In this document: one piece after another, positions 396 through 63,374 of the stretch
Position numbering within the stretch: the stretch's first letter is position 1
How the letters are laid out: every line of letters starts with the position of its first letter
NCBI GenBank assembly: GCA_024741835.1
Contig: JAENRP010000185.1
Coordinates: 1 to 64,000, forward strand
Direction: 5' to 3'
Length of the DNA stretch: 64,000 nucleotides
DNA from: Diplocarpon mali
Taxonomy: Eukaryota; Ascomycota; Leotiomycetes; Helotiales; Drepanopezizaceae
Program-made: the position numbers and the translations under genes
The notes under the pieces: generated by a model
Database searches by the model: none
Told to the model about the DNA's origin: nothing
The model's input: the letters and a program-made list of their open reading frames with translations, nothing else

Positions 396-418
396 ACTCG
401 CGGGCCCGGCCCGGGAGT
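396..418. repeat. GC-rich palindrome copy 1
   Basis: ACTCGCGGGCC and GGCCCGGGAGT flank one central C, giving 11-bp arms with one mismatch. It lies in the 3' part of Copia-1. Confidence 0.85.
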
Positions 419-512
419 AAAAAAAAAAAAAAATCACCCCTTAACGGAAGTGCAAAAAAAAATCACCCTGTAATAGAGGTGCAAAAAAAAAATCACCCCT
501 TAATCGAGGTGC
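419..512. repeat. Three tandem A-run/CACCCCTTAA units
   Basis: Three imperfect units (419-453, 454-482, 483-512), each an A-run of 9-15 bases followed by TCACCC(C/T)... and ending GTGC. They sit in the 3' untranslated part of Copia-1, directly after palindrome copy 396-418. The unit resembles the right flank of the palindrome at 2354-2378 (CAAATCACCCCT). Confidence 0.85.
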
Positions 513-2309
513 AGAACCTTCATATTCAACAATTTGATAAAGGCGGCGTGGTTGGAGCTATTCAAGCTCTTGGTAAGGCCGTCGGCAGCGTTGTCTTTGG
601 TATTCGTGTACTAGAGGTCCAAATGGCCTTTCCGAAGCTCTTGCCGAATATAATGGAACTTGATATCGATATGCTTCGTTCTCTGGTGATATTCGGGATT
701 TTCGGTGAGATAAAGGGCTCCCTGGTTGTCGTAGATCATCTCGACTTTGGTGGCGTCGTCGCCGGCGTAGCCCATTTCCTTGAGTACTTGGCGTATCCAA
801 GAGGCCTCTTGTGCGAATTTGCACATAGCGACGTACTCTGCCTCTGTAGATGAGAGAGCGACAATAGTCTGTTGCTTAGAGGAGGCGGTAATAACGCTAT
901 TATTAAAGAAGAAGACGGCCCTAGAATAGGAGGCTCTACTTCCTCTGTCACCTGCCTAGTCAGAATCGCAGTAGCCGTGCAATTTCTAAAGCTCTAGGTC
1001 AGTTGTTTTGCTTCCGAAGGTAGTACAATAGAATCGCGTTCCCTGCAAGTATTGTAAAACTCGTTTTGAAGCTGCTATATGTTGTAGCGAAGGGTTAGTG
1101 AGGAATTTGCTAAGAATGGAGCAGTAGTACAGTATATCCCAACGCGTATAGTGCGCAAGGTACTGTAGAGAACCACAGATTTCTTGGTATAGCTTCACTT
1201 CCTGTGGAGTGGCTTGGCCTTCAAATTTGACCATGTGAACTTCATAGCCACTGGCAAAAGGCGTTGGTACGCTCTTGCAATTAGTCATATGAAAACGTTT
1301 AAGAACCTTATCAACGTAGGCGTCTTGACAAAGTGAGATCATTCTGTTTTGTCGATCTCTAACTATACGTACTCCTAAGAAGTAGTTAGCCGGTTCGCCA
1401 CCTGTGATCTCGAAGAGGTTGCGAAGATCTCTCTTGAACTTGTCATATATATCACCCTTCTTTGCTACCACGAGGAAGTCGTCGACGTAGGTGACGATGA
1501 GAATCCGAGAGGCGCGGTTGATATATACACAATTGTCAGTATCGAGAGGTTGAAAATCGAGCTTTTGTAGCTCGGACCGTAGCTTTTCTTGCTATAGTCG
1601 TGGAGATTGCTTCAAGCTATATAAGGCCTTAAGAAGCTTGAGACAGTGGTCTTGAGATGAAAGAACGACTTTGTCTTGAGTGTATCTAGGAGGTAACTTG
1701 ACGTAGATGTTAGAGTCAGCTTCTGAATTGAGGAAAGCTGTCTCGACGTCGAACTGATCTAGCTCGAAGTCGTAGAGAGCTGCGAGCGCAATTGCAATCT
1801 TCCAAACGGCAGATTTGCAGACGCTAGCGAAGGTTTGGTCGTAATCTCGACCTTGTCATTGCATATAGCCTTGCACGACGAATCTGACCTTCCATCGGGA
1901 GATTTCCCCGTTTTGGTCTCTTTTTGTTTTGAAGACGAGCCTCGAACCGAGTACTCTGTCGTCTTTGGAGAGTTCTGAACGTTTCACCACCACCTATGTG
2001 TTCTTGTGAGCGAGGGAATTGTACTTAGAGTTGATCGCAGATCGCCATTTGTCGGCGTCGGCGCGAGAGAGGGCTTGTTCGACTGTTTTCGGGTCATTTG
2101 GGTAAGGAGAGTCGAGTAAGGCCATGTGGAAGGCGCCTAAATAGGCTTCCTTGTCATTAGAGTTGTCAGCGTTGAATCCAAGAGCAGTAGAGCGAGTAGC
2201 TCTCTTCTCGGAAGGCTGAGGGTGAGTCTTGTTCTTGGAGCTAGGAGGTCTTCCTCTCTTTCTTGGAGTTGGAAGCTCAGCTTCATTAGCTTCTTCTGAA
2301 TTAGAATTA

Positions 2310-2332
2310 ACTCGCGGTCCCGGCCCGGGAGT
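2310..2332. repeat. GC-rich palindrome copy 2
   Basis: Arms ACTCGCGGTCC and GGCCCGGGAGT. Inside the Copia-1 polyprotein on the minus strand, encoding part of the peptide TPGPGPRVNS. Confidence 0.85.
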
Positions 2333-2353
2333 GAAATCATGAGAGTGAGAATT

Positions 2354-2378
2354 GACTCGCGGTCCCGGACCGGGAGTC
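2354..2378. repeat. GC-rich palindrome copy 3
   Basis: Arms GACTCGCGGTCC and GGACCGGGAGTC. The change to GGTCC is matched by GGACC in the other arm. It encodes a second TPGPGPRVNS in the same frame as copy 2, 21 bp away. Confidence 0.88.
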
Positions 2379-3790
2379 AAATCACCCCTCAATTGAGAAG
2401 AGGAATTTTCCTTAAAGTATGGCTCTATAATCAGGCCATCTTCATCGAATCGAACGTGAGATGATCGAATAATCTTATCACCTGTTTGCGATGGCATATA
2501 GATTTGATAGATACTTCTGCCGTCAAATCCGACAAGAATACCTACCTCTGCTCTCGGAGCGAGTTTATTGCTCTGAGTTCGCCTTTCTTTCTCGATTAGT
2601 ACGTAGACGCGACAGCCTAGTACTCGAAGATGCTTGACGGAGGGAGTATGAGGCTTATTAGGCTCGATATCATCCCAAAAGACCTTATGTGGAGTCTTGC
2701 CACCTAGAATATCAGAGGCGGTAAGATTTGTGATATGTATCACCGAAAGAAGGAGGTGAGGCTAGAGAAAGGAGGGGATATTTTGGTCAATTACAGCTGT
2801 TCGCAACTTTTCCATTAGTGTACGAATTGATCGTTCCGATCTACCGTTTTGTTCTAGTGTATATGGAGTAGATTCCTCTAAAATCATACCGAGGTTTTCT
2901 GCGAGTATTCGCATCTGTGTAGGAGAGTACTCCTTGCCTCCATCAGTTCTCTACCGCTTGATTGTGCGATTGTATTGAGTTTGTAAGAGGCTGATCATCT
3001 TCTTATTTGCCTCAAAGGCATCAGATTTATTTGTATAGGTCCATCCCTATCTAGCCATTATAGCTGGGCAAGTGAAGATGGAGGCGTATTTATAACCGTT
3101 AAGGCCAGTTGGCTTCAGATGAACCACGTCGATGTGTAGCTCGTCAAGTGCCTTCGTAGGTCGAGGGCGAGCTGAACGTTTATTGACGTGTCGGAGAGGT
3201 CTGCCTTTCTCGCAGGGGGCGCAAATTCGCGTCTTCCCTGATTTTATTTCCTTGATCTGCATGTCGGTGACAGCAGATTAGGTCTTTCTAACCGTTTGTA
3301 GGCTAGCGTGGCCTAATCGACGGTGCCAGAGCTCAATATTAAGAGGTCCATTCTCGATAGCAGCTAGGAGAGCATGTCCACTTACGTAACCAGAGGAGTT
3401 AGTAGAAGGCTGTTCCTTATTGATATACATATTGTTGTCGACAGTGCAAATTTCCTTCTTATTGGATAGGAATAGCTTGCCATTTCGATAGAAGCCTTTG
3501 ATTTTATTGAGTTTGCCACTTGAGTATAGGCAGATAGGTGATTGAGGTATGTAGAGAGTATTAATTAACTTAAGAATACACACCTTTCCATTGGATTTGA
3601 GTGCGTTGACTTTGCAAATGCCAACGCCGAGAGGTTGAACAGATCTATTAACTGTACTCAAGGAGGGTAGATTGTCTCAAGCAGTGTAGGAAGTGAACTT
3701 GGAGAGATCATTGGAGATATGCTCACTAGCACCTGTGTCGTACAGCTAACGATTCCTCAATTTTGATAAGAAGCAGGAGGTAGAAGAACT

Positions 3791-3814
3791 GACTCCCGGT
3801 CCCGGCCCGCGAGT
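3791..3814. repeat. GC-rich palindrome copy 4
   Basis: GACTCCCGGTCC then GGCCCGCGAGT, in the Gag-protease linker of Copia-1. The minus-strand peptide is TRGPGPGVSS. Confidence 0.82.
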
Positions 3815-3856
3815 GGAAATCGGTCCTGAAGAGGAATCGCCTCCTAGTAAGGAATT

Positions 3857-3880
3857 GACTCCTGGGCCCGGCTCGCGAGT
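3857..3880. repeat. GC-rich palindrome copy 5
   Basis: GACTCCTGGGCC then GGCTCGCGAGT, 42 bp after copy 4. The minus-strand peptide is TREPGPGVNS. Confidence 0.82.
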
Positions 3881-5325
3881 GAGAATTGGCCCCAGGGTTA
3901 GTAATGGCATAGTATGCCTAAAGAGGTCATTATCTAACTCTTCGTCTTCCTTCTGAATCTTCTTGGAAGGCTTCTTGCCTTTTGGTGATGATGATAATGA
4001 CGAGGACTTGTCGTCCTTGCCTTTGAGGTGACGGAATACGTACTTCTTCCCTGAATCCTTCTCCTAAGCCTCTCTTTTCGATTTATTAATAGCAAAGCAA
4101 TCTTCTGCCTTATGGTATGGCTCTGGTTGCTTGCAATGAGGACAGGGGGAGTTGGGGGAGGAGTTGGTAGTATTCCTGGAGGTGCTCTTCTTTGAGTCTT
4201 TGAAACCTCCCTTGTTGTCTGACTTCTTGTAGTTAGAGGAATGCGGCTTGCCAGCCGATTTGTTACCGTATAAGACGGTTCCGTTTATCTTTAAACTCTG
4301 TAAGGCTCGAGCTTCGTCAGTAATATCTTCAATGAGAGCTTCGAGCGTGATCTCTGATTTTCGTCCAGCTGCTATAGCTGAGCGAAGATTAGAGCGTTGT
4401 CGATCTGCCCAAATGGGCCATCTATTGGAACAGCTAGCAATAAACATGATAGGGTGCCAGTGAGAGGGAGGGGCAGAGTCGAGAGCTTCCAATTTAGTGA
4501 TTGAAAGCCTGAAGGCGACGACGTAAGCTTCGAGTGAATTGAAGTCGTCATATTTGATAGTAACGTAGGTCTGTATAGCGTTGTATTCAAGCACTGTTCC
4601 AGATCCTTCGTACTGTTTTTGGAGAGCTTCCCACATATCCAAGGCAGATTTGTCGCCTTCTGTGTGAGCTAGTGGGCCTGGTTTACAATTAAGTGTAATG
4701 GCAAGCTTCATCTGAGATTCCTTAGCTTCCCATCTAACCCAATTGTCCCTTTCCTCATTTGTAATGGAACGGTCCTACAAGTCAACCTTAGGTGGAGCAT
4801 GTGTTCTAGCTTTTGTATAGAGATGCATGGTCAAGGCGTTTGACTTTGCAAGGTTCAAAACCTTATTCCTCTACTGGCTGTAGTCCTCTGCGCCTTTAAG
4901 CTTTTGAGACTTAGGGAGGCTGAGGGCAGCCGAAGATAACAACGACATCTTGTTTGTATGTTTGTATATGGAGTTGTCGAAAGGAGAAGGTGGAGAAGGA
5001 GGAGGAGGAGGAGATGAACTGTTGAATTCGAGTTTAGGGTACTGTATATCAGTCCCTTTAAAAATAGGTGATTCAGGCAGTGGAGTACTTTCAGCAATTA
5101 AGCTGGTAATCTCAGCTGTTAGTCCTAATGATTCAGCCACGATGACGAATCTTGCGTAAGCTTAGATTATTGCGTAGCGCTCTGGAAGGGGAGTAGCCAC
5201 TGTTTTATTATTGAGATGACGCTATCGTGTGTCGTTAGTTGAGTAATAAAAACTCAAAATATCGATCAGCCTTTTCGTTTGTAAGGGAGACTCTAATCGA
5301 TGGAATTTATCGAATGCTGTTTATA

Positions 5326-5345
5326 GGCATGCGGGGCTTATAACC
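5326..5345 (-). other. Copia-1 primer binding site, initiator tRNA-Met half type
   Basis: Directly inside the LTR, the minus strand reads GGTTATAAGCCCCGCATGCC. The first 12 bases match GGTTATGAGCCC, the complement of the anticodon arm of eukaryotic initiator tRNA-Met, with one G-to-A change that RIP would give. Copia of Drosophila is primed by this internal half-tRNA site, so the assignment fits the family. Confidence 0.75.
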
Positions 5346-5578
5346 TGTTGCAATGAGGTTCTCTAATAGTGAACTTGATAGTAAACTAGAAGAGGGCACG
5401 AAGAAGTATAAGGTGCAAACGACGATATTAGGTGTCTTGATTCATGAGAGCTCTCTAACTACGAGCTATTTAACAAGGGCTGCCACTAAGTCATGTGGCA
5501 AGTCATATGACACATTATGTGTATGATGTGTTATGTGACAGATCATGTGACAAACATGTGACGGGCATTCCTGCAACA
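5346..5578 (-). repeat. Copia-1 upstream (5') LTR
   Basis: Partner of the LTR at 3-235, of identical length. For a minus-strand element this is the promoter-bearing LTR. It lies about 0.8 kb from the start codon of the MFS transporter gene, which runs the other way. Confidence 0.95.
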
Positions 5579-6397: not shown

Positions 6398-8388
6398 ATG
6401 AATCACAATACTGCCGTGGCGGATTCGCCAGCCGGCGCGGGGCCCAAAGACATCAACGACGAGCACATTGAGAATGTCAGGGCCGTCTCCAGAGTCCCTG
6501 GAAACGGCCAATACTCGGAGAAGAATGGCATCAGGACTGCCGGCGACGGCGAGGACCATGAGCATGAACCTCCGGTAAGCAGACGACCCCGGTTTCGTCG
6601 CTATTCCTCCCAAACTCCAGTCGCTGACTTCTGATGCAGATGACCCTTGCCCGGATCATGTCCCTAATTGCCATGGCATTCTTATGGACCGCCTCTCAGA
6701 TTCCTCTCTACCTGTTTGGTGAGTCCGGACGTCTCCTCAACAAAGCCTCTCGCTCATGTACCTGCAGGTGGTGTTCCGCCATATGTCTACGCAGACCTCG
6801 GGGGCGTGGACAGATGGGTATGGTTTGTGCTGGCCAACCTCCTGGCGCTCGCTGCCGTATGTCCATTCGTCGGTGCTCTGTCCGATCTGGTGGGTCGGCG
6901 CTGGGTCGCAATTTCCGGAGGCTGCTTCATTGTCATCGGGATGATCGTCTGCTCGACCGCCCACGCCATGAACACATTCATCGGTAGGATCTCTCCTCCC
7001 CCCAACAAGTAGGCCGCTCTAACGTCTCTGAGCTGGCATGGCTCTGGCAGGCGTCGGTGCGGGCATCAACGAGCTTACTGCTCTGGCTGCGACCGCTGAG
7101 CTCGCCCCGACAGCGAAGCGTGGGAAGTATGTTGCCGTTCTCATCTTCACCATCGTCCCCTTCTGCCCTTCGGTCCTGTGGGCGCAACTTATTGCCTACC
7201 ACTCCAGCTGGCGATACATCGGCCTGCTATGCGGCGTCTGGGCAGCCATCGGCACTCTCATGACCGCCATTTTCTACTTCCCCCCTCCCCGTGTCAACTC
7301 CACTGGGCTCAGCCGCAAGGAGGTCATCGCCCAGATTGACTTTGTCGGCGGTTTCTTGTCGATTGTTGGCATGATTCTCTTCACTGCAGGGCTCCTCTGG
7401 GGCGGCTACCAGTACCCATGGAAGTCGGTCCACGTGCTCGTGCCTCTGCTCCTCGGTGCAGCCTTCCTCGGCGGCTTTGGCTGGTGGGAGGTCTATGGGG
7501 CCAAGTACCCCATGTTCCCATCTCGTCTCCGAAAGGACCCCAGGATTCTCGCTCTGACTCTTGTCATCACCTTCATCTCGGGCGCGAACTTCTTCTCCGT
7601 CCTCCTCTTCTGGCCCACGCAAGCTTTCAACGTCTACGGCCACGACCCGGTCGGTGTCGGGCTCCGTGGTATGCCCATCGGGTTCTCCATCCTCGCCGGT
7701 GCTTGCATCGTCCTGGTATGTGCACATGCCGCTTCGTGCGTCCACTCGAGCCCGGAAGTGACTGACAGTCTTCCAGTGGCTGCTCTCTGCCCTCCGAGGC
7801 CACATCAGGCTGTTGATGGTTGTTTCCACCATCTTCATGACCGCCGGCTGCGGAGCCCTGGCCGCCGCCCGCCTCGACAACCTCGACGCCGTCTACGGGA
7901 TCCTCGTCGTCGCCGGTCTGGGAATCGGCGGCATCGTTGTCCCAGCCTCAATCATCACCACCATCATCTGTCCCGACGACCTGATCGCCACCGTCGCGGC
8001 CCTGACGCTCGCCATCCGCGTCGTTGGCGGAGCCATCGGGTACACCACCTACTACAACGTCTTCTACAACAAGTTCGTGCCGGCCCTCAAGTTCAACATC
8101 GCGACCGCATGCGTCAACAACAACATCTTCGACGGCGAAACTATCAAAGCCGCCGCCGAGCTCACTGGCGCTTCGCTCATCAACCAGATCCTTACGCTGC
8201 CCGGCGTCGACGGCAACGTGACGATCTGGAAGGAAATCGTGCTCGCCGGGCAGGTTTCGTATGCTCACGCGTATCCTTATGTGTACTACGCGTCGATCGC
8301 TTTTGGTGCCGTCTCCATCATCGCTGCTCTCTTCCTAGGGGATATCGCGCAGTATATGGACAATCACGTGGCTGTCGTCATGCACTGA
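6398..8388 (+). CDS. MFS efflux transporter, Tri12-like (DHA2/14-TM type)
   Basis: Five exons give a 588-residue protein: 6398-6574, 6640-6718, 6768-6983, 7033-7715, 7777-8388. Introns are 49-65 bp with GTAAG/GTGAG/GTAGG/GTATG donors and CTGAC or CTAAC branch points; all phases close. A hydrophilic N-terminus of about 60 residues precedes repeated membrane segments. The sequence GGVPPYVYADLGGVDRW, the MFS motif A (GALSDLVGRRW) and GVGAGINELTALAATAELAP are typical of the fungal trichothecene-efflux-pump (Tri12) family, whose members export small toxic metabolites or siderophore-related compounds across the plasma membrane. The C-terminal half keeps the long extracellular loop (FNIATACVNNN...) seen in this family. 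No biosynthetic gene is adjacent, so the substrate is unknown and a toxin role should not be inferred from the family name. Family assignment is firm; substrate is open. Confidence 0.92.
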
Positions 8389-9976
8389 GCTCGGAAAAGA
8401 GGCGAAGGGGGGTGTCGGCCTCGGCAGAGGTTCGGATGCTGCGGATGAAGGCCGGCACAGGCCGAGAATGTGAGGGTCTTTGAATCTGGTGTCACACCAC
8501 AGACCCGTAGATATATGATCAATACACTACGACACGAATCTATGAAATCAAAAATACCCTGCAATCTCTCTCTCTCGGGGCAACAAGCCACAATGAGCCC
8601 CCATTCCTCGCTGAATCTTTGCATCTCAGGTGACATGACCGCAAACTTTCCATCTCCGCTGCGCCTCGTCGATGAGAGTCTCACGCGTTCTGGATTATAT
8701 TTTCTTCCTCCCGATTCCCTCCCTGTCAAAACTGCGAGAGCGCCTAGCCGCTCCTGACAACAAAGCCCTCACGAAAGCAAAACGCTACTTGGAGAGAGGC
8801 CATCCGTCTCTTTACCCATTTTCGGGATGAGAGCACGATGGCACTCGGCGCCAAAGGTTGGACGCGCGTCAGAGGGAGAGGGAGAGAGAGAGATCTTCGG
8901 AGCACGAGCAGGAGCTAGAGTAAGAGGTCTGAGAGCTCGATTCACCACAGACGCGGGGAACTTGGCGACACGCTAGACTCTCTCCTCGATATCGACATCA
9001 CTCTGACGTACCGACATCTTGTATCGACGCCTCTGTCTGATTTTCAAGGCGCTCCGTTGATGATCCCGAGTGCGTGGGATATTTCCTGGTACTGGTATAC
9101 CTTCCAGCATCTCCGGTTCGGCCGGTGACGGGCCCCTGAAGATGAGGTCAGTAAGAAGGGGGGATGCGGGGGTGGGACATGCGAGGCCCGAGGATCGAGT
9201 CTTCCCGCGGGAACCGGACACTCTTCTTCCTCGCGGGAGTCTGTCATCTGCTCAAATCGTGCCCGTGTGTCCTCCTCGTGTCCCCGTGGCGCTGGTCTGT
9301 GTCGCGGGTGAAGTAGGGCATTCTTGCGATGGCGTGACGGGCGAGGCCTGAATGTTTACCAAGAGCAGTGGTGTGCACGACGTAGCGGCGTGACCAGGAA
9401 GGGCTTTCGTGGCGGGAGGAGATGGAGGGAGTCTGCGTACTGTAGAAGGGCATCTCGGCGGTGTTTGGTTGACGGGGGAGGAGTGGGCAGTTACCGGACG
9501 ACTGGAAATAGTTCCAAGGTGCCATTTGCCAGAGCGGAGATTCTGACGTGTGGTTTCAACGAATTACTGTAGTAGGCCACGGGAAGTCTAGACATGAGTG
9601 AGGCTGCTTCGCTCGTATATTCTCTTTATCTTACGGAGCACGCCGTGACGCTCTTGCCCGCTCACGAGCGCCTCTGCGCAGCTAGGTACCCTCGACGGGG
9701 GAGGATAAAGGGCAGAGCGAGTCTGAGGTGTCCGGGAGTTGGCCACACAGATTCGCGATGGTCAAGCTTGAATGAGGTTTCTCGGCCGGCTGAATTGGCC
9801 GTGTCAACACCTCGGCAAAGGAAAGGGGTTCTCGCTTAGACCAGGGGTTGACGTAGTGTTTCACGCTGGTGTCAGAGACCGGCCTTCCCAGATCTTGGAT
9901 ACAACACGCTCGCAAGCTTCCTCACTGGCGGCTCAACAGCGCCCGACGACTACGTGAGGATCACGCATCGCCAAAC
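8389..9976. other. Intergenic region, no supported gene
   Basis: About 1.6 kb between the MFS and MYND genes. Open frames up to about 120 codons exist on both strands but overlap each other and lack recognisable motifs or consistent splice signals. A purine microsatellite lies at 8871-8893. Confidence 0.6.
8871..8893. repeat. GA-rich microsatellite
   Basis: A run of GGGAGA and GA units without pyrimidines on the + strand; simple repeat of no evident function. Confidence 0.8.
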
Positions 9977-16633: not shown

Positions 16634-16659
16634 CTACAAAACCACATACAGCACTCTAG

Positions 16660-36586: not shown

Positions 36587-37144
36587 TATCACCCTTCTAT
36601 TGTTGCGCTTATCGGTTAGTGTTGGTACTGACAGTCATCGGACATAGGTCTCATAACGGATGCTCGGAATACTCGTCCCCAGTCTGAACTTAGCTTAGGA
36701 AGACAAGGAAGGTTGCGTGTGAAAGAGGGCGTCATTATATCACCAGACACTTCCTACTCCCCCCGTGTTTTGCACTTCCGCTCCCAGATACTGAGTCCTG
36801 GCTACCTCACGCCCTTCTGGTCTTGCGGATTCCGGGATCAGAGCAAGCTTGCCCAGAAAGGAGTAAATCTAGCAAACCGAATATTTGGCGATGTGAGTTC
36901 TCGGCTTCTAGGAGCCCTGACCATAGGGGATTTAGCATGCATTAACGACTTAAGAGCCATCGGACATATAACGCCGTTTCATTGTTAGTAGCCGTGTCTG
37001 AAAGCTTATCCTCATTTCTGCAAAACCATCCTCCTCCTTGACATTCTGTTACGGACGGATTTTAGAATGAGCTGTTCTCCACACCCTCAACTGCTGGGTC
37101 GTAGAAAATGTGGGAAGCAAGGGAGGTGGTTGGTTCTGAGAAGC
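36587..37144. other. Boundary region before the AT-rich block
   Basis: Last stretch of ordinary composition. No gene recognised. The change to AT-rich sequence falls within a few tens of bases around 37150. Confidence 0.6.
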
Positions 37145-39781: not shown

Positions 39782-39978
39782 TGTTGTGCAGAATGGGCGG
39801 AGTCTCCACTTATTCTGGAGACCCTCTACGTGACTCTGCTTAGTTATAGACTCTCCCTTTTCTTTCCGAAGTCTCCTTACTATATATATACTAGATAATA
39901 ATACAATCAATCATCTTTATCTATATTAGCGAGCCTCTTAAGCGACCTAATAAAGGCCCTCTAGCCGACCGCATTATA
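39782..39978 (+). repeat. Copia-2 left LTR
   Basis: 197 bp, starting TGTTGTGCAGAATGGGCGG and ending GCATTATA, which corresponds to GCACCACA in the right copy. Differences from the right LTR are transitions. Confidence 0.92.
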
Positions 39979-47376: not shown

Positions 47377-50376
47377 TCCTATTAGCTATTTAATACCTAT
47401 TTAGAATCTTTTAGCAAACTCGGATTAAACTTTTAATAGAATCCGGAATTCTACTCTTAGGCCTAGCTTATAAGTAAAAGGATAAAAAGACGTCTTTAAA
47501 TAACTTAGGACTACTACCTACTTTTTTAATATTAATATTAGAAAATACTAAAAACAATAACAATTTTGAACTTTTTACTAACAATTTATTTAAATCTTTT
47601 CAAACTCGTCTTAGTCACTTTAAGATTGACTCGGATTCTAAACGTTTTTTAAGCCCTTTTGAATTTCAAAGTACTCCTTTTAGCTGTTAATCTCGCAATA
47701 TTAAAGCTTCCCCTTTACCCCTTATAGATTCTATTAACTTAGACAGTTAGTATAAAACGATAATAGCCGCATTTAAGGCTATTATTAGTCACTTTCCCCT
47801 TCCTAGTTCCCTTAGCGCTCCTTACTTTATAGGCGCCAATATTACTAATTTCCTTAAGCAATATAAGGAGACTTATTACGATTTTGGTATTATATAAGAG
47901 GATATGATTTCTCGACTTCCTTACTATTATAATTATATAAGTAAGGATATTATCAAGTCCCTCCTTGAATAGAAAACTCATAGTTTATAAGAACTCCTTA
48001 TTAAAGCCTTTAAATCTGAATTCCGCGAATTTAATAGATAGCAGATTCGCAACACCTTAGCTTTCTTAAAGGAATTTGTTTTAATCACTTATACTCCTAA
48101 GGAACTTAAGAACTACTATCGGACTTTTACTTATATATTAAATACCTTAATTAGTTAGAAAATACTTAGCGAAGTTGAAAGAGGCCGCCTTTTCTTACTC
48201 GGATTACCTACTGGCCTTCGAAACAAGATCATTAAGCATTTTAGGATCGATAAACAAGACCTTATAACCTTCGCCTTATTTAAGGAATTCTCGGCCTTTG
48301 CTTTAAAATCAGATCTTAGTAAAAGAACTATTAATACTATAGAGTAGGAAAAAGCCCCTACTCCCTCCTATACTAAAGACTTTAAGAATCTGGTTTAAGA
48401 ATACTTAAAAGCTTTAAAAGTTATAAAGGAGGTAAAGAAGAACCTAGTAGTTATACCTTTTACTTATAGGCCTAACTTAAGAGTGAAATCCAACCTTAGA
48501 ATTAAAGAACTTAAGACCCAATTTACAGAACTCCAAATCTAAAGCTTAGAAACTAAGATTAATAATCTCTTATAAGAAAAATAGCATATTCCCTAGTTTA
48601 GTAATAGACAAAACTCGGCCACTATAAGCCAACTTAGTAGTTCCTATTACCAGATTCCTACTTCTTATCATTTAGAATAACTAGCTAATATAAGAACGCA
48701 ATAGCTGGCTAAAGAAGGAGGAATTAATCCCAATTAGCACTCTGCTAATATTAATGCTATAAGGTACTAAGGAAACGGTAATAGAAGACGATTAACCTGC
48801 AACTTTTGTAATAATAAAGAATCCAATTGCACTTTATATAAGTACTGCAACGATTGCCCTCTTTTCCTTTGTTTTATTAATACTAGGATTATATATATTA
48901 ATAAGTATAGGATGCTTTATATTAAAGATCCTAGGCCAGACGCTATCCCTATTAAAAAACACCAGAATCGTTTATAGCTATAGACTATTTAAATAATAAT
49001 ATATAGTATAAAGTAGGATAAGGATTTAGCCAAATAGAAGCGCATTATCGAAATCAACTCTAAGGTCCTAACTTATATATATATAGGTCCAGCTAGCAAT
49101 CTACCTAAAGGAGTGCTTACTAACTAAACTTCAAACTAGATAGCTATTAAAATCAGAGGTATCTCTATTTTAAGGTAGGTTAATAATAATATATTTACTA
49201 ATATTAATACTACTTCTGTATTTAGAAACCCTTGGAATACTTAGCGTCCTTCTAGATCTACCACTCCTTTAATACTAATAAAACCAGCTAAAGTCCAGAA
49301 ATCAATATATGCAATTTAAGAATCTTAATATAGAGTCCAAATGCTAAAAGATACCTAATAATTTAAAACTGCAATAGATAAGGATAAAGCCAATATAGCA
49401 GACGAATTGATCAAAGATATAATAGACGAAGATGGCTTTAAGCTTAAAGATTAAGAAGTTAAAGTTATTACGCAGACCCTTGACCTTAAGTAAAAGAGAT
49501 AAATATTAAAATAGGAAAAATTCGTCGAAAAATATACTAGTTCAACTGCAATGGAAAAAGCTATAGAGAATGTTATAGCTTAGTAAATTAACCTTACGTT
49601 TAAAGACCTATTTGATTTAATTAAACGCTTTAATAAAGTGCTAAGAAAGCATATCCTAGTTGCCTTTAAAGATTTGAATAATAATAAGGAAATGGAAATT
49701 ATAATGCGAAAGAACTTTAAGAAGTACCTAGCCTTAATTAAATATCTTTAGATTGCAAAAGACAAAGGAATCTAAAGGTACTATAATATTATAGTAATAG
49801 CTTTAATATTTTAAAATATCAATCGAAATTGTTTAATAGTTGCAATAAAAAGCCCTATTATTATTTATTTTATAAAAGAATTAGTTAAAGCAAAGGCTCT
49901 AATCAATTATAGTTCAGAAGTTAATATAATAATTAGAAAAGTGGCAGAAATGGCTTAATTGATAATTGTTAGCAATCGACTCCTTATTTATTCAACTATT
50001 TTTAAATTGAAATACAATTTTAATAAATAGGTGAAAAATGTAAAGGTTAGAGTTAGAGGAATTATTAATTATACTAACTTTCTAATAATAGAGAATTCTT
50101 TAAATAACATTCTTTTAAGAATGCCCTTTATTTTAGAATCTTAGCTAATATTTAACTATCCTAAAGATAGTCTTATAAAAGCTAGTCTTTAGAATATAGA
50201 TCGATTTTTAAAAGGATAAATGGTTATTATAAGAGATATAGCCGAATTTTAAAATAAGGTTTTAAGAAATAATTAACTAGTATAAGGGCTAGGCTTAATG
50301 CTAATAAAGGAAGGCACTTAGTAAGGAGTTATAGTAAAAGAAAGGTAAGTTTACCAATTTTAAATAATAGCGATTT

Positions 50377-50401
50377 GACTTGCGGTCCTAGACTAAGAGT
50401 C
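50377..50401. repeat. Palindrome copy in Gypsy A (RIP form)
   Basis: GACTTGCGGTCC, one base, then AGACTAAGAGTC. Flanks GATTT and AAATC extend the symmetry on both sides, giving a palindrome of about 35 bp. Confidence 0.8.
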
Positions 50402-50539
50402 AAATCTAGAATTTTGAAAAATAGTGCAATTAGCGTTTTATTAGCTTAATAATTAAGAAAAAAGAAAAATAAGGTAAAGAAGAGAGTTCGTTTTACAAAT
50501 TTCGATAATTCACTAATTATTTTAAAAAACCTAAAAACC

Positions 50540-50562
50540 ACTTATAGGCCAGACCTACAAAT
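50540..50562. repeat. Palindrome variant in Gypsy A
   Basis: ACTTATAGGCC, A, GACCTACAAAT: a related subtype with an A centre; counterpart of 56416-56438. Confidence 0.65.
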
Positions 50563-53500
50563 GAAAAATAATAAAATTACTAATAATATTTCTATCTATA
50601 CACTTTAAATTAATAACTTAGAAAATCTTTTATTTATTTTTAAAAAGGAAAATTCGAACCGTTTTATAGGATTTAATAAAAAAGGAAAGAAGTAGAAAAG
50701 TATAGTACTAGCTAATATTCGAACTATATATAAAAGCAAGGCTAATAAAGTATAACCAATAGATTAAGGAATCTCTAATAGCTTAAAGCTTAAAGGACTG
50801 AATAATTAGTTTAAATAAGATAAGAAGCTTTGACCTCTAAAGCTAAGTAGTAAATTCGATAAGTTTATTAAAAGCAGATTTTCTAATAAACCTATCAGAT
50901 ATTAGCTAATAAAAGAATGTTTTAATATATTAAAAATTGGAAATGACTTAATAGAATAAGAATGCGAACTACTTTATAAAACCTTAACAAATCGAAAGGA
51001 CGCTTTAGCTTTTGATTAAACGGAACTTAGCTAGATTTAAAAAGAGGTTACGCCTTATATTAAAATTAAGATAATATCTTATAAAGCTTAGTAAGAGAAA
51101 ACATTTAAGGTTCTTAAAGCTCTTTAAGAAAAGGTAATCGAAATGTTAAAGGATAGGTTAAAGCAAGGTATTCTTAAGTTCTGTAATAGCCCTTATAAGA
51201 ATAAATAGTTCCTAGTTGCTAAGAAAGAAAAGGGAATTTACAAACTAATAATAGTAGTAGTAGAAATGAACTAAGTAACTATTAAAGATGCTAACGTTCC
51301 TTTAAATATAAATGAGTTCTTAAATGAATTCGCAGGATTAACCTATAGCTTTCTTATTAACTTTTTCTTTAAATATAACTAATTCATTCTTAATATTAAA
51401 TCAAGAGATATAATAGCAATTCAAACCTCTCTTAAGCTACTTTAGATAATAAGATTACCTTAAGGGGCTATAAATTCGATTGCTTAATTTGTCTAAGTAA
51501 TCTATAAGATACTAGTAGATTGTATACCTAATATTATACTCCCTTATATAAATGATATAGGAATAAAAGGATTAAGATCATTCTATAACTATAAAGAAGT
51601 TCTCCTTAGTATATAATAATTTATAATAGAATATATTTAGAACTTGGACTAAGTACTTATATAATTTAAAAGGGTAAGAGTAATAGTTAGTCTGAAGTTA
51701 TAATACTATCTTCTATTAATGGAAATTGTTAGTTTTATTATTAATTCTAATAGCCGAAGTCCTTAAAGGGCTAAAGTACTTAAAATTGATAAATAGAAGA
51801 GGTATAATAATATGGCAGAAGCTCGCGCATTTATTAGTATTATAGTATACTATCGCATTTAGATTAAGGATTTTATTAAAAAGGTAGTACCTATTTACGC
51901 CTTATTTTAGAAAGGGGCTGAGTTTTAATAGGAGGAACCTTAAATGAAGGCTATAAAACAACTGAAGTAAGCATTGCTTAAAGCGCTATATCTAATTAAA
52001 ATAGACTATAGAGCTAACGCTAGGCCAATTATACTAATAGTTGACGTAAGCTTAATCAAATAGGGTACTATCCTTTAATAAGCTAATAGCTAATAGAAAA
52101 GACATTTAGCTCGCTTTAAAAGTAGTCTTTAGAATTTAGTAGAGATAAAGTATAATATTATTAAGTGGGAATGCAAAGGCGCTTTAAAGGCAATAAAAAA
52201 GATAAGAAGCGACCTTTATAATACTTACTTTATCCTTAAAACTAATGTTAAAGTGCTAATAGAATAATTGAATAGAGCTGTAAGCGACCTATTAAAAGCC
52301 TTACTAATAAAATAGATTGCTTAGATAAGACTAATAGACTTTAAAGTCAAATATATTCTAAGGATGAAAAATACTATTACTAACGGCCTTTTAAGAAGAA
52401 ATCGCCTTTATTATGGAGACCTGAGATGGATAGGTCTCGTGATATATATCACATGATCGGCGCAGGACGGCAGGAGGATAAAAGGGCCATCTTCTATATA
52501 TAGAGACAGCGCATATCGCCATAGTACTAAATATACCCTATACTTGGGACTTGTTCCTAACATCTTATTTAAAAGAGCCCGCTTATAGTACTTCCTCCTC
52601 TTGTTTTTAGGTCTTCCCTTAGGCCTATTCTTGTATTATCTCCCTTCAGTTTTATATTAGTGACCTATGCAAGGACCGATTTCTTAAGATTTCCGTCTCT
52701 ATACGACCTTATCGATCTCTTAATTTGCAAATAAGAGACCGGCCTTTGAAATACGTCTTTAAAATACTTATAGCATTTTGATTAACTTTAAAACCCTTAT
52801 CTTTAATCGCTTAATTACTTAGAACTATCGATTTTCATTTAGCAACTATTAATAACCTTAGATTTTCCCTTTTCAGCTCTGCTCCGAAAACCCCTATTTT
52901 CTTCCTTAACTCCGAGATTTTCGGAATTTTCGGCTTCCTAGTATGAAAAGTTTGGCGGACTTTATAATAGCAATCTTAAATAGCAGTAGTTTCGAGTACT
53001 CGAGTAATACTAAGCGCAAACTTCAACTAGAAGTGCCTCCTTAGAATCCTTAAAAATCCAAATCTAATAATTCAGCCGCCTTAGCTTAATAAAACTTTAA
53101 AAATTGCCCTAGAATCGTCTCTAGAGACCCCTTTATTCTAAAGACTAATAGGAATTAGCCTAAAGGCTAAGAAGAATCTTAAATACAAACCTTATCTTAG
53201 AAATTGGTCTTAGATTAAGTAAACCTTATCTTATTACAATTAGTTGTAACGCTCTTATTAGCTATTTAGCACCTACTTAAAATCTCTTAGCAAACTTGGA
53301 TTAAACTTTTAGCAAAATCCGGAATTCCACTCCTAGGCCTAGCCTATAAGTAGGAGGATAAAAAGATATCCTTAAACAACTTAGGACTACCACCTACTTT
53401 TTCAATATTAATACTAGAAAATACTAAAAACAATAACAATTTTAAACTTTTCACTAACCCTTTATCTAAATCTTTTTAAACTCATCCTAATTACTCTAAG

Positions 53501-56252
53501 ATCGACTCGGATTTTAAATGTTCTTTAAGCCCTTTTAAATTTCAAAGTACTCCTCTTAGCAATTAATCATATGATATTAAAGCTTCTTATTTGCCTCCTA
53601 TAGATTCTATCAATCCAGATAGTCAATATAAAACGATAATAGCCGCATTTAAGGCTATTATTAGCCACTTTCCCCTCCCTAGTTCCCTTAGTGCTCCTTA
53701 CTTTATAAGAGCTAATATTACTAATTTCCTTAAGCAATATAAAGAAACTTATTACGATTTTGGTATTTTATAAGCAGATATGATTTTTCAGCTTCCTTAC
53801 TACTATAATTATATAAGTAAAGATATTATCAAATCCCTTCTTAAATAGAAGATATATAATTCATAGGAACTCCTTATTAAGGCTCTTAAGTCTAAATTCT
53901 GAGAATTTAATAGATAGTAGATTCGCAATACTTTAGCTTTCTTAAAGGAATTTGTTTTAATCACTTAAACTCCTAAGGAATTTAAGAACTACTATCAGAC
54001 TTTTACTTATATATTAAATACCTTAATCAGTTAGAAAATACTTAGCGAAGTTGAAAGAGGTCGCCTTTTCTTACTTAAATTACCTATTAGCCTTCGAAAT
54101 AAGATCATTAAGCATTTTAAGATTAATAAGTAAGACCCTATAACCTTTGCCTTATTTAAGGAATTCTCGGCCTTTGCTTTAAAATCAGATCTTAGTAAGA
54201 GAACCATTAATGCTATAGAGTAGGAAAAAGCCTTTACTCCCTCTTATACTAAAGACCTTAAGAGCCTAGTCCAAGAATACTCAAAGGCTTTAAAAGTCAT
54301 AAAGGAGGTAAAGAAGAACCTAGTAGTTATACCTTTCACTCGCAGGCCTAACCTAGGAGTAAGATCTAACCTTAGAATTAAGGAACTTAAGACCTAATTT
54401 GCAAAACTCTAAATCTAAAGCTTAGAAACTAGGATTAATAATCTCTTATAGGAAAAACAGTATATTCTGCAATTTAGTAATAGGTAAAACTCAGCTACTA
54501 TAAGCCAACCTAGTAGTTCCTATTACCAGACTCCTGCTTCTTATTATTCAGAATAACTAGCTAATATAAGAATGCAATAGCTAGCTAAAGAAGGAGGAAT
54601 TGATCCTAACTAGCACTTTGCTAATATTAATACTATAGGGTACTAAGGAAACGGCAATAGAAGACAACTAACCTGCAACTTTTGCAATAATAAAGAACCT
54701 AACTGCACTTTATATAAGTATCGCAACAATTGCCCTCTTTTCCTTCGTTTTATTAATACTAAGGTCATATATATTAATAAGTATAGGATGCTTTGCATTA
54801 AAGATCCTAGGCTAGAAGCTATCCTTATTAAAAAGCACTAGAATCACTTATAATTATAAACTATTCGAATAATAATATATAGTATAAAATAGGATGAGAA
54901 TTTAGTCGAATAATAGCATATTATAAATATAAATGCTAAAACTCCAACTTATATATATATAGGTCCAATTAGCAACCTACCTAAGGGAGTTCTTAAGGAC
55001 CCAGCTTCTAACCAAATAGCTATAGAAGTTAAAGGCATCTCTATCTTAGGGTAGGTTAATAATAATATATCTACTAATATTAATACTGCTTTTATATTTA
55101 GAAACCCTCGGAATACTCAACGCCTTTCTAAATCTACTACTCCTTTAATACTAATAAAACCAGCTAAAGTCTAGAAATCAATGCGTGTAACTTAGGAATC
55201 TTAATATAAAGTCTAAATGCTAAAAGATACCTAATAATCTAAAACTGTAGTAGACGAAAATAAAGCCGATATAGCAGACGAATTGATCAGAGATATAATA
55301 AACGAAGATAGCTCTAAGCTTAAAGATTAAGAAGTCGAAGTTATTGCGTAGACCCTTGACCTTAAGCGAAAGAGATAGATATTAAAACGGGAGAAATTCA
55401 TCGACAAATACGCTAGTTCAATCGCAATAGAGAAAGCTATAAAAAATATTATAGCCTAGCAAATTAACCTTATATTCAAAGACCTATTTAGTTTAACTAA
55501 ACGCTTTAATAAAGTGCTAAGAAAGCATATCCTAATTGCCTTTAAAGATTTAAATAATAATAAGGAAATGGAAATTATAATATAAAAGAACTTTAAGAAG
55601 CACCTAGCCTTAATCAAATGTCTTTAAATTGCAAAAGATAAAGGAACCTAAAGGTATTATAATATTATAGCAATAGCTTTAATATCTTAGAATATTAATC
55701 GAAATTGTTTAGCAGTTGCAATAAAAAGCCCTATTATTATTTATTTAATAAAAGAATTAATTAAAGCAAAGGCTCTAATTGATTATAGTTTAAAAGTTAA
55801 TGCGATAACTAAAAAGATAGTAGAAATGGCTCAATTGATAATCGTTAGCGATCGATTCCTTATTTATTCGACTGTCTCTAGATTAAAATACAATTTTAAT
55901 AAATAAGTGAAAAACGTAAAGATTAAAGTTAAAGGAATCGTTAATTATACTAACTTTCTAATAATAGAGAATTCTTTAAATGATATTCTTTTAAAAATGC
56001 CCTTTATTTTAAAATCTTAGCTAACATTTAACTATTTTAAAGATAGGCTTATAAAAGCTAGCCTTTAGAATACGGATCGATCCTTAGAAGGATAAATAGT
56101 TATTATAAGAGATATAGCCGAATTCTAAAATAAGGTTTTAAGAAACGATTAGCTAGTATAAGGGCTAAGCTTAATGCTAGTAAAGGAAGGCACCTAGCGA
56201 GGAGTTATAGCAAAAGAAAGGTGAGTTTGCCAATTTTAAATAATAGCGATTT

Positions 56253-56277
56253 AACTTATAGTCCTAAACTAAGAGTC
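56253..56277. repeat. Palindrome copy in Gypsy B (RIP form)
   Basis: AACTTATAGTCC, one base, AAACTAAGAGTC, flanked by GATTT and AAATC; counterpart of 50377-50401. Confidence 0.75.
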
Positions 56278-56415
56278 AAATCGCGAATTTTGAAAAATAG
56301 TGCAATCGGCGTTTTATTAGCTTAATAATTAAGAAAAAAGAAAAATAAAGTAGAGAAGAGAGTTCGTTTTATAAATTTCAATAATTCACTAATCATTTTG
56401 AAAAACTTAAAAACC

Positions 56416-56438
56416 ACTTATAAGCCAGACCTATAAGT
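56416..56438. repeat. Palindrome variant in Gypsy B
   Basis: ACTTATAAGCC, A, GACCTATAAGT; counterpart of 50540-50562. Confidence 0.65.
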
Positions 56439-58381
56439 GAAAAATAATAAAATTACTAATAATATTTCTATCTACGCACTTTAAATTAATAACTTAGAAA
56501 ATCTTTTATTTGTTTTTAAAAAGGAAGATTCGGACCGTTTTATAGGATTTGATAAAAAAGGAAAAAAGCAGAGAAGTATAGTATTAGCTAATATTCGAAC
56601 TATATATAAAAGCAAGGCTGATAAAGTATAACTAGTAGATTTAGGAATCTCTAATGGCTTAAAGCTTAAAGGATTGGATAATTGGTTTAAATAAGATAAG
56701 AAGCTTCGACCTCTAAAGCTAGGTAGCAAATTCAACAAGTTCATTATAGGTAGATTTTCTAATAAACCCATCGGATATCAGCTAATAAAAGAACGTTTTA
56801 ATATACTGAAAATTAAAGATAACTTAATAGAATAAGAACGCGAACTACTTTATAAAACCTTAACAAATCAAGAGGACACTTTAGCTTTTGACTAGACGGA
56901 ACTTAGCCAGATTCGAGAAGAGGTCACACCTTATATTAAGATTAAGATAATACCTTATAAAGCCTAGTAAGAGAAAACATTTAAGGTCCTTAAAGCTCTT
57001 TAAGAAAAGGTAATCGAAATATTAAAGGATAAGCTGAAGTAAGGTATTCTCAAGTTCTATAATAGCTCTTATAGGAACAAATAGTTCCTAGTTGCTAAGA
57101 AAGAGAAAGGAACTTACAAATTAATAATAGTAGTAGTAAAGATGAACTAAGTAACTATTAAGGACGCCAACGTTCCTTTAAATATAGATAAGTTCTTAAA
57201 TAAATTCGTAGGATTAATCTATAGCTCTCTTATTAACTTCTTCTTTAGATATAACCAATTCATTCTTAATGTTAAATCGAAAGATATAATAGCAATTCAA
57301 ACCCCTCTTAAGCTACTTCAGATAATAAGATTACCTTAAGAGGCTATAAATTCGATCGCTTAATTTATCTAAGTAATCTATAAGATACTAGTAGATTATA
57401 TACCTAATATTATACTCCTTTATATAGATAATATAAGAGTAAAAGGATTAAGATCATTTTATAACTATAAAGAAGTTCTCCTTAGTATATAACAATTTAT
57501 AATAGAACACATTTAGAACCTGGACTAGGTGCTTATACGATTCGAAAGGATAAGAGCAACAATTGGTCCAAAGTTATAATACTATCTCCTATCGATAGAA
57601 ATTATTGGTTTTATTATTAATTCTAATAGCTAAAGTCCTTAAAGGGCTAAAGTACTCAAAATCGATAAATAGAAGAGGTATGATAATATAGTAGAAGCTT
57701 GCGCGTTTATTAGAGTTATAGTATACTATCGCATTTGGATTAAGGATTTCGCTAAAAAGGCAGCACCTATTTACTCCTTATTTCGGAAAAGGGCTGAGTT
57801 TCAATAGGAGAAACCCTAAATAGAGGCTATAAAACAACTAAAGCAAGCGTTACTTAAGGCGCCTTATTTGATTAAAATAGACTATAGAGCCGACGCTAGG
57901 CCAATTATACTAATAGTTAACGCAAGCTTAATTAAATAGGGTGCCGTCCTTTAATAAGCTAATAGCTAATAGAAAAGACATCTAGCTTGCTTTGAAAGTA
58001 GTCTTTAGAATCTAATAGAGATAAAGTATAATACTATTAAATAGGAATGCAAAGGCGCTCTAAAGGCGATGAAAAAGATAAGAAGCGACCTTTATAGTAC
58101 TTACTTCATTCTTAAAACTAATGCTAAAGTGCTAGTAGAATAATTAAATAGAGCTGCAAGCGACCTATTAAGAGCCTTACTAATGAAATGGATTGCTTAA
58201 ATAAGACTAATAGACTTTAAAGTCAAATATATTTTAAGAATAAAAAACACTACTACTAACGGCCTTTTAAGAAGAACTCGGCCCTACTCCTTTAATTTGA
58301 TTAAAGAAGATGAAATAGATATTAATAAGTAGATAGAAAACGAAATTGGTTATCTATCGATATATTGCCTTAAAAGGACTC

Positions 58382-58406
58382 GATTCGCAGGCCTAGCCCG
58401 CGAGTC
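58382..58406. repeat. Palindrome copy in the RNase H-integrase linker of Gypsy B
   Basis: GATTCGCAGGCC, T, AGCCCGCGAGTC. It is in frame in pol, giving RTRFAGLARESNKR, a different frame of the repeat from the one used in Copia-1. Confidence 0.82.
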
Positions 58407-59817: not shown

Positions 59818-59840
59818 ACCTATAAGCCGGTCCTATAAGT
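59818..59840. repeat. Degenerate palindrome near the integrase C-terminus
   Basis: ACCTATAAGCC, G, GTCCTATAAGT; same subtype as 56416-56438, weaker. Confidence 0.5.
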
Positions 59841-60234: not shown

Positions 60235-61080
60235 ATGCCTTTAAAGAACTTATAAATGGTTTTATCTATTGCGATAAGGGATAAATAAGCACTAGTTATA
60301 AACTTCTCTTAGGATAGTAGAGCTATTGCATTATTAGAGAGCTTTAAATCGACCTACGCAGCCTTAGGAGATATAAAGTAATAAAAACTCCTTTTAGCTT
60401 ACGCGAATACTATTAGCAACCTTTTAACCTAAGTAGCCCTTAGAATTCTCCAATTTAACAACTTCTTAATTAAAGAATTAAGACTAAAGGGAATCTCCAG
60501 AGAGGAATTCTTAGCCGACGCAGATTAATATATAACCTTGGCCGATACTTTTAAAATAGACTAAGATAAAAGGGAAGAATCTATTCGATAACTAGATAAT
60601 TTAGCTACTAATAAGAAAGGACTCTTATTTTATTCACATTTCCTAACAAATATTAATTCTAATAATAGAAGGCAAGTATTATTAAAAATTCTTAAGGAAA
60701 ACACTCCTATAGCTAGAGCTATTCAAATTCTCAATTTCTTTATCATTTAAAAAGGAGTAGCAAAATTCTAAGATAATCGAATTCGCGGTCGCAGATTTAT
60801 AAGCCTATCTAATGCAGTACTTATAGCAGCTAATAGAACTATAAAAAGATCAAATTAAGCTATAGATATTACCCTATCTAATAGCACTATTATTAATATA
60901 CTAAGGCTCTACGCTTCTGCTTATAGTTTGCTTATTTTAAAAGAAAACTGGACTCTTATATTAGAATTTAAATAAGATTTCTTTAATAATAAAGAAGAGA
61001 ATTGGTTATTTATAATTAAGCCTGCTTTAAAATTCGCCTTTTAACTTAAAGATTTAATAAGCGCTAAACTATATAATTTA

Positions 61081-61103
61081 ACTCGCGGTCCTAGACTAAA
61101 AGT
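61081..61103. repeat. Palindrome copy in the unrecognised frame (1)
   Basis: ACTCGCGGTCC, T, AGACTAAAAGT, inside the long frame starting at 60235. Confidence 0.78.
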
Positions 61104-62465
61104 TAGAAACGAGAATTTTAGAACTGGACCTAACCTGCCTCTTATTGAAATGATTCTAGAAACTGCTGCTAAATAGACTGCTTAAACGCTTAGTATAGCC
61201 TCTTTAGAATTTTCAAAATCTTCAAAAGACTCTCCTTTAGCTAAACGACTAATTTTAACTCGACCTTTAAGAAGGATAGATCGTTTAATAGCTACTTTAG
61301 CTAATTTACAATTTGAAACCAAAGGATTGCGCGCTCACTTAAACTCCTTTCTTAACAACTTAAAGGAGCTAGTTCTTAACTTCTTTATATCTATATATAA
61401 CTGTTTTAAAAATAATAATATAAGGGAAGACCCTATTCCAACTGCTTTAAAGACGACTAGGAGAGCCGTCAAATAGATTTAATAGCTTATCCTAGACGAG
61501 TTCGCTCTTATAAATATTATTTAATTCTTTAATAATTATAAAAGTTAAGAACCTAGTCTTTTAAATGCCAAATAAGACTATTTTATCTTATAAGAAAGAG
61601 AACGCAAAGAGGAATCTATTAATTAGGATATTTGTAATTGTAATAATATGCCTCAATCGGTCATTTTCAACCTTAAGCTTAAAGAACGATATAATATTCA
61701 AGTGTCCTTTATAATAAAGACTCGCTTTCGGCAGTATCTCCTTAGCGTAGGAATCGAAGGGAGAAGACTTTACAACCTTTATATTTGCTCTCTTTCGGTT
61801 TACTATAGTCTTAATTATAAAGGATTTGATATTAATAAAACTATTAAATACCTCGAACTTCTCTATATAGTAGAAGATATCGATCTTTTTTTAATCTACC
61901 CTAATAATTAGTTCTTTATCTCTTTAAGGATACGCAAATCCAACCTATTAATAATAGAGGCATCTTTAAGTGCTATAAAATTCAAGGCTGATCCTAAAGC
62001 CTTAAAAGCGTTAGAGTCGATTAAATGGAACAATTCCTTCTTATCGATATTATTAAGCAATAAATAGCAGGAGGGAATAGAGGAAGAAGGGTCAATTATA
62101 ATGCTTAAGCCCTTCGGATGCCGCTTCCTAACCGACAATTTTACTACTAATAATAATACTTTTATAAGTATATTCCTCTCTATTATAAGATAAGAAGCAG
62201 AGATATATCTTTATCACTTCTGCCCTATAGATAGCGCAACCTCTATACCTTCTTATTTTCTTTATAATATAATATTCAATCTCACTTAATAAGTCCTTCA
62301 AATGCACTATAGACTCTACCTCTTAGCTATAATAGTAAGAAGTAGAGGAACCTATCAGCTTATAGCCTACTTTGAACCTTCCTAATTGATTGGCCTTAGT
62401 CTTTATAATTAAGTCGTTTTAATAAAAAGAGATATAAGTGCTACTAATAAAGAAATTCCGATTTT

Positions 62466-62490
62466 CACTTATAGTCCTAGCCCGCGAGTC
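62466..62490. repeat. Palindrome copy in the unrecognised frame (2)
   Basis: CACTTATAGTCC, T, AGCCCGCGAGTC. The left arm is RIP-changed, the right arm intact. Confidence 0.8.
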
Positions 62491-63350
62491 AATTTTATTA
62501 GAAAGCAAGTCTTAGATTATCAGATCCTACCAATCGGATAAGGGCCAGCTTTTAAAAGCCTTAATAGGTAGGTCGGCTCTTAATTGAATATAAAACTCAC
62601 TCTATCTATAAAGAAGATAAGTCAATAGACTTCTTAAGCACTCGGTTTAAAATCTCAATTAGCTCAAATGACTGCAAAATTAAAGCGAAAGGAGATCTTG
62701 CGACCTATTACTAATAATAGCAATCTAATTATAGTAATAACGAAATAGGGACACCTTCTTAAAATGCTTTCGGACAATCCTTATAGGACTAGTGGTTTTA
62801 TAGCCTTTTACAATAACTATATAGCTATTCGCAATAAGAATACCTTAAAAAATGAGACTCGAATCTCCGATCTTATCTTTTCAATCTCTGCTCTAAAGCA
62901 ACCTCTAGTACCTTAATAGATTAATATAAGTAGGACTACTGCACCTTTTAAAGCAGCTTTTTATTTTAAGAACTGCGGCAGCCTCTTTAAAGCTATTATT
63001 AATCGACGCTCTTAGATAGATCCATTAGTTATAATTAAAGTATAAGAGTTATTTCTTTTTAATAAAGACAAATTGAAAATCCACCTTATAAAATATAATC
63101 AGAAGCTCTTTAATGCCCTTATTAAGGCCTAAATAGATATTATAAATACTAAGTCGCTTCTTTATAGACTCAAGTCTTAAGGATAATGCAATAAAGTAAA
63201 TGCTATCTAAGAGCCTAATGCACTAATTAATAAAGGCATTATTATAAGAAAATTCGGAAAAGAGACGAACTAAGACGCTAGTATAATATTAGACCCTGAT
63301 TTAGGAACCAATCTCCTATTTTTACCCTTAAGCTTAGAAACGCCAAGACT

Positions 63351-63374
63351 GACTCGCGAGCCCAGCCCGTGAGT
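63351..63374. repeat. Palindrome copy in the unrecognised frame (3)
   Basis: GACTCGCGAGCC, C, AGCCCGTGAGT. One arm base changed in each half. Confidence 0.82.

Follow-up and report, generated by a model that had tools for sequence, protein, structure and literature searches.

Protein-coding palindromes are, to our knowledge, found only in Rickettsia and its relatives, and coding minisatellites consist of tandem copies with whole-codon periods. The Rickettsia palindromic elements are described as units of ~150 bp that lie in frame in unrelated coding sequences and encode a conserved peptide (PMC10969869). The GC clusters of yeast mitochondria (GC42 and others) are described as short, dispersed, GC-rich palindromes in which the stem is more conserved than the loop and for which RNA-mediated copying is suspected (PMC4478555). 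Fungal GalEa (Copia) retroelements are reported to carry a conserved palindromic hairpin site (PMC5445492). Here we analyze a GC-rich palindrome in a stretch of 64,000 nucleotides from Diplocarpon mali (GenBank assembly GCA_024741835.1, contig JAENRP010000185.1, positions 1 to 64,000, forward strand), hereafter the window, in which a first-pass annotation made from the letters alone had listed 14 copies. On balance, we favour reading it as a protein-coding palindromic repeat that was copied between unrelated families of long terminal repeat (LTR) retroelements and multiplied with them.

By analogy, the palindrome looks like a nuclear counterpart of the Rickettsia elements: it lies in frame within open reading frames (ORFs), with exceptions in clusters that use phase 1 or phase 2, and encodes a conserved peptide in several families. 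However, its unit measures ~35 bp as against ~150 bp, and whereas the Rickettsia elements are bacterial and reside in metabolic genes, the fungal repeat is nuclear, eukaryotic and so far seen only in retroelements. It shares with the yeast GC clusters the composition of a short GC-rich palindrome, but those are mitochondrial and mostly intergenic, whereas the repeat is mostly coding and nuclear, being found on contigs that also bear LTR elements and, within the window, host genes. The GalEa site is a 9-bp palindrome adjoining the 5′ LTR; the present repeat differs in sequence, is internal, occurs repeatedly and is also found in Gypsy elements. Like coding minisatellites, it forms tandems with whole-codon periods (39, 45, 48 and 54 bp), but a minisatellite accounts for local arrays only and does not explain why unrelated families whose spacers differ share one palindrome. 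No published description of the repeat was found in searches of the open-access literature, in agreement with the first-pass annotation, which had not recognised it as described.

We defined the palindrome as a 23-bp core within a unit of ~35 bp with weaker outer arms. Summarized over the copies, the unit reads GATTTC-ACTCSCGGKCCSGGMCCGSGAGT-GAAATC, the outer flanks of the core forming a weaker inverted repeat, RATTYS. The structure proposed at first pass, an arm, one central base and the reverse complement of the arm, holds as far as the palindrome goes, but its length of 25 bp gives way to ~35 bp and the arms are often incompletely complementary. Scanned over the window, the earlier consensus found 10 places with at most 8 mismatches, against 1 and 0 in two mononucleotide shuffles. 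Seven of the 14 listed places lie 3-4 mismatches from it, 50377 and 62466 lie 7 away, and 50540, 56253, 56416, 59818 and 61081 more than 8. Since the window 3′ of ~37 kb has a GC content of 24-43% and looks like a product of repeat-induced point mutation, C>T and G>A changes were counted separately; an alternative base was also permitted at four copy-variable positions, picked after inspection of the data. With this tolerant scoring 13 of the 14 listed places carry 0-1 other mismatch and 59818 carries two, so that every listed place does hold the palindrome. The tolerant scan also revealed four unlisted copies in the window (Table 1) and, in its AT-rich half, 12 places compared with 0 in the reversed sequence and 0 in each of five 2-mer shuffles.

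The search of the whole genome (49.4 Mb) that the first-pass annotation had proposed matched the 23-bp core, at up to 3 mismatches, 283 times in forward and 291 times in reverse orientation, against 0/0 for a reversed-letter control. The two sets are largely the same places because the core is nearly its own complement, and the genome holds at least 283 copies. We fetched 102 match-centred stretches (30+20+12+40), chosen mostly by match quality and representing neither a census nor a random sample of the 283; three overlap an earlier stretch and one is the window itself. All 102 lie in multicopy elements or element ORFs, and no ordinary gene carrying the palindrome was found among them. By BLAST at the palindrome, 96 match a named element reference, some possibly via motif arrays alone; one of these (L069) serves as its own reference and shows 73% to its relative in L012. 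The remaining six stretches (L013, L030, L096, L100, L112 and L132) belong to multicopy clusters with no match to the named references. All of the last 40 stretches match a previously seen one over at least 120 bp.

Grouping by flanks placed 254 matches in 23 clusters. The host families are Copia-1 (window 1-5578), Gypsy-1 (window 47-60 kb), Gypsy-2 (L070, L068, L081, L092 and P0126-P0129, of which we read P0129 as the front part of the same element), further Copia elements recognised by Pfam (P0125 and two elements in L076, possibly one family) and a long ORF at 60.2-63.5 kb of the window. The first-pass assignment of the window copies to a Copia element, two Gypsy copies and an unrecognised frame is borne out, the frame being this long ORF, which adjoins the Gypsy pol. 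Given that the Copia and Gypsy types, assigned by Pfam domains, are unrelated and that the palindrome occupies many different positions across the 23 clusters, descent from one ancestral position in a single polyprotein is excluded, as had been argued from the element types at first pass.

The dominant reading phase encodes T-[P/R]-G-P-G-P-[R/G]-V in several families. This coding character, with mostly one phase, positions in inter-domain linkers and whole-codon spacing, had not been foreseen by the first-pass annotation. The phase ACT-CNC was found in all 101 matches with an open frame of at least 240 nt that exceeded the next frame more than 1.3-fold, a count that omits decayed copies and includes the same sites repeatedly. 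A universal phase 0 is contradicted by fuller checks including decayed frames, which show phase-1 and phase-2 sites. With the frame of fewest stops as the criterion, 18 of the 23 clusters use phase 0 most often, frequently by small margins, and the apparently non-coding Copia-1 cluster has it in only 9 of 17 cases. In or just after the window, phase 0 accounts for 11 of 15 sites, phase 2 for three (58383 clearly, the pre-gag site, and 59818 weakly), and one site is a tie (396); the binomial probability of 11 in 14 against one third is ~7e-4, or ~0.009 with close neighbours counted once.

Of 128 distinct spacings between neighbouring copies, 125 are divisible by three, with 11 values ranging between 39 and 129 bp, and the exceptions are 61, 64 and 124. 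The motifs fall between domains. For instance, the two motifs of P0128 start at 379 and 394, after RNase H (216-321) and before the integrase H2C2 zinc-binding domain (475-531), and the eight of P0125 occupy 501-628, with Pol_BBD (381-455) on one side and gag_pre-integrs (663-710, a weak match below the cut-off) on the other. In P0129, one motif at 52 precedes the zinc knuckle (394-410) and two follow it, at 602 and 617. A search of proteins for the motif array, with 7,984 candidates scored and element proteins often missing from gene sets, returned five proteins at E up to 10, all from Diplocarpon coronariae; four had E of at most 1.1e-9 and P0129 was weak (0.032). The observed part of our reading rests on many positions in several families, mostly one phase, inter-domain linkers and whole-codon tandem spacing.

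Substitutions were analyzed in 22 representative copies. Some arrays contribute several of these, and a few of the copies are non-coding or read in a different phase. Transversions numbered 0, 7 and 27 at codon positions 1, 2 and 3 of phase 0, and all 27 third-position transversions fall at core positions 9, 12 and 15, where they are synonymous (Gly, Pro, Gly). At the silent arm positions 3, 6, 18 and 21 there are 1, 4, 2 and 0 transitions and no transversions. The palindrome thus behaves as coding sequence at its centre and as conserved DNA in its arms, though the arm conservation could also stem from recent common origin.

Copy number varies within sites. At the Gypsy-2 site between RNase H and integrase (IN), eight places have a span of 71 bp between exact flanks, eight a span of 116 bp and three a span of 161 bp, which by length correspond to one, two and three copies in 45-bp steps, the intervening letters having been seen in a few; L127 carries four copies. 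The Copia-1 linkers between IN and reverse transcriptase (RT) likewise hold one to four. Sequence next to the palindrome is also shared. The flank AAATCACCCCTTAA adjoins it at two different Copia-1 sites, 396 and IN-RT; at IN-RT it is exact in 5 of 15 aligned elements and has one mismatch in the window's own copy. A spacer of Gypsy-2 agrees with one of Copia-2 at 13 of 16 positions (shuffle p 0.0025, uncorrected for eight comparisons), and the other seven comparisons were not significant. Together, the shared flank and the spacer match suggest that copying extended beyond the palindrome itself. Along with the lack of solitary copies among the fetched stretches, they would favour an exchange in which element RNAs or cDNAs take part over a free DNA element.

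Under our reading, the copying step would most likely take place while mixed element RNAs are being reverse-transcribed, through template switching or recombination of a similar kind. The hairpin may help this step, and flanking sequence would sometimes be carried along. Copies would survive where phase 0 yields a harmless Gly/Pro-rich linker, T-[P/R]-G-P-G-P-[R/G]-V, and could then expand in frame by slippage or unequal recombination.

Several observations weigh against copying of a coding palindrome between families. With respect to coding, phase 2 is the commonest in 3 and phase 1 in 2 of the 23 clusters, and the Copia-1 site at 396 appears non-coding. With respect to the hairpin, core pair 9/15 shows no covariation (G-C 9, G-A 6, T-C 4, T-A 3), pair 5/19 is C-C in 15 of the 22 representative copies, and, of the seven units that were folded, two do not surpass their shuffles (z 0.14 and -0.78); because of these two pairs and two units, a strict hairpin requirement is unsupported. 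With respect to insertion, the exact-flank pattern at the Gypsy-2 RNase H-IN site, which covers some elements only, found no span as short as an empty site would give. An alignment of 15 of 30 Copia-1 IN-RT copies (14 were left out as one strand only was read, and one as no right flank was found) showed copy-number change only and no empty site. Insertion is therefore not directly seen and no target-site duplication can be defined. No empty site was found, either, that would show AG target-site nucleotides as at the insertions of mitochondrial GC clusters. Six of the 16 positions in the matching spacer belong to the unit's own flank. Positions are common within families, so that the transfer may be old. 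Finally, none of the 102 fetched stretches holds a solitary copy in ordinary DNA. Of the first-pass suggestion that the palindrome itself moves or is copied, the sharing between unrelated elements stands; a free mobile DNA element is not supported, in view of the within-family positions and the failure to find a solitary copy among the fetched stretches or an empty site.

The strongest competitor, which we still consider rather unlikely, is a selected peptide: TPGPGPRV would be a functional linker or processing site gained by ordinary recombination, and the palindrome a by-product of encoding T-R-G-P-G-P-R-V. The between-domain positions, the one dominant phase, the whole-codon spacing and the synonymous nature of the central transversions are all as such a peptide would have them. 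However, selection on the peptide leaves the absence of transversions at silent arm positions in the 22 representative copies unaccounted for, as well as the retention of the same DNA at the apparently non-coding site and at phase-2 sites and the presence of the asymmetric unit in both orientations. Four Copia relatives found elsewhere also lack the peptide, although their linkers are too diverged to align.

Arm conservation beyond coding need would also fit a nucleic-acid site selected in several families, either an RNA hairpin that serves packaging or dimerisation or a stretch of DNA to which a host or element protein binds. Among the seven units folded against shuffles, three are clearly better (z -3.9, -3.4 and -3.0) and two intermediate (-2.3 and -1.7). 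We judge this explanation improbable. Against it stand the very many copies per element, mostly in frame (Gypsy-1 with its neighbouring ORF has some ten sites, and one Copia-1 linker up to four), the two poorly folding units and the lack of covariation at pair 9/15. Less probable again is a miniature inverted-repeat transposable element (MITE) moved by a host transposase into DNA generally, with survivors visible only in retroelements. It would explain the inverted-repeat structure and the many positions, but unlike a MITE the palindrome has no solitary dispersed copies among the 102 match-centred stretches, no visible target-site duplication and no empty site. Chance or base composition can be dismissed with near certainty, given the zero counts in the tolerant window controls and in the genome control.

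The sites of the window are collected in Table 1. Pfam domains of Copia-1 are Retrotran_gag_2 (ORF 4064-4711), SH3_retrovirus (ORF 1994-2743) and RVT_2 (ORF 986-1471). Tandem remnants of the flank AAATCACCC.TTAA and long A runs occupy 405-515, beside the apparently non-coding copy. The Gypsy-1 copies are apparently nested: 38932-39782 and 52409-53258 form a repeat of ~850 bp (91%), and 47377-52404 and 53253-58280 are the internal regions (88%); a 3′ LTR of copy B was not found as far as C185:66200. The long ORF at 60.2-63.5 kb carries three palindromes and has no Pfam match; an 846-aa piece of it occurs in L002 (stops read as X), and a relative in L069 shows 27% identity (E 9e-42). A further palindrome lies just past the window at C185:65002 (L133), in phase 0. 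Near position 37000 the window passes sharply from DNA of 44-62% GC with host genes, and Copia-1 at its start, to decayed element DNA of 24-43% GC. The window also includes an ORF for a NIMA-like kinase with 92% identity to Diplocarpon rosae and an ORF at 7038-8483 that matches TRI12/MFS efflux pump families.

Table 1. Palindrome copies in the window and the Copia-1 element
Feature	Position	Strand	Remarks
Copia-1 LTR retroelement	1..5578	-	repeat pair 3-235 / 5346-5578, 97% identical, taken as LTRs; contig starts at base 1
Core, Copia-1	396..418	-	past apparent stop codon, taken as non-coding; phase a tie
Core, Copia-1 IN-RT linker	2310..2332	-	in frame, FTPGPGPRVNS
Core, Copia-1 IN-RT linker	2355..2377	-	in frame, LTPGPGPRVNS; neighbour 45 bp away
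Core, Copia-1, between gag and pre-integrase region	3792..3814	-	in frame, STRGPGPGVSS; read by us as the linker between Gag and protease (PR)
Core, Copia-1, after gag	3858..3880	-	in frame, LTREPGPGVNS; neighbour 66 bp away
Decayed palindrome, Gypsy-1 copy A, upstream of gag	47453..47475	+	phase 2; unlisted earlier
Decayed palindrome, Gypsy-1 copy A, gag	48462..48484	+	phase 0; unlisted earlier
Decayed palindrome, Gypsy-1 copy A, between gag and RT	50378..50400	+	phase 0
Decayed palindrome, Gypsy-1 copy A	50540..50562	+	phase 0; 162 bp after previous; only C>T/G>A departures from consensus
Decayed palindrome, Gypsy-1 copy B, upstream of gag	53329..53351	+	phase 2; unlisted earlier
Palindrome, Gypsy-1 copy B, gag	54338..54360	+	phase 0, PFTRRPNLGVRS; unlisted earlier
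Decayed palindrome, Gypsy-1 copy B	56254..56276	+	phase 0
Decayed palindrome, Gypsy-1 copy B	56416..56438	+	phase 0
Palindrome, Gypsy-1 RNase H-IN linker	58383..58405	+	phase 2, clear exception, TRFAGLARES
Decayed palindrome near pol C-terminus	59818..59840	+	two other mismatches; frame not clear, phase 2 weakly
Palindrome, long ORF adjoining Gypsy-1 pol	61081..61103	+	phase 0, LTRGPRLKVRN
Palindrome, long ORF adjoining Gypsy-1 pol	62467..62489	+	phase 0, FTYSPSPRVNF; in L002 FTRGPGPRVNF
Palindrome, long ORF adjoining Gypsy-1 pol	63352..63374	+	phase 0, LTREPSP*VRL; in L002 LTREPGPRVRL

Beyond the copying of a coding palindrome between families, we tentatively raise a bolder possibility: that the repeat is a protein-coding palindrome of the nucleus which spreads by itself, exploiting the reverse transcription of its retroelement hosts to travel between Copia and Gypsy families, a parasite of retrotransposons read as a harmless linker peptide. 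Several D. coronariae assemblies have been described (PMC11527701), so that empty sites can be searched for directly. As a nuclear repeat comparable to the Rickettsia elements, seen so far only in retroelements and mostly in frame in polyprotein linkers, the palindrome would offer a tractable case for transposase-independent spread of very short sequences, and would naturally mark genetic exchange within one cell between elements of the Copia and Gypsy types.

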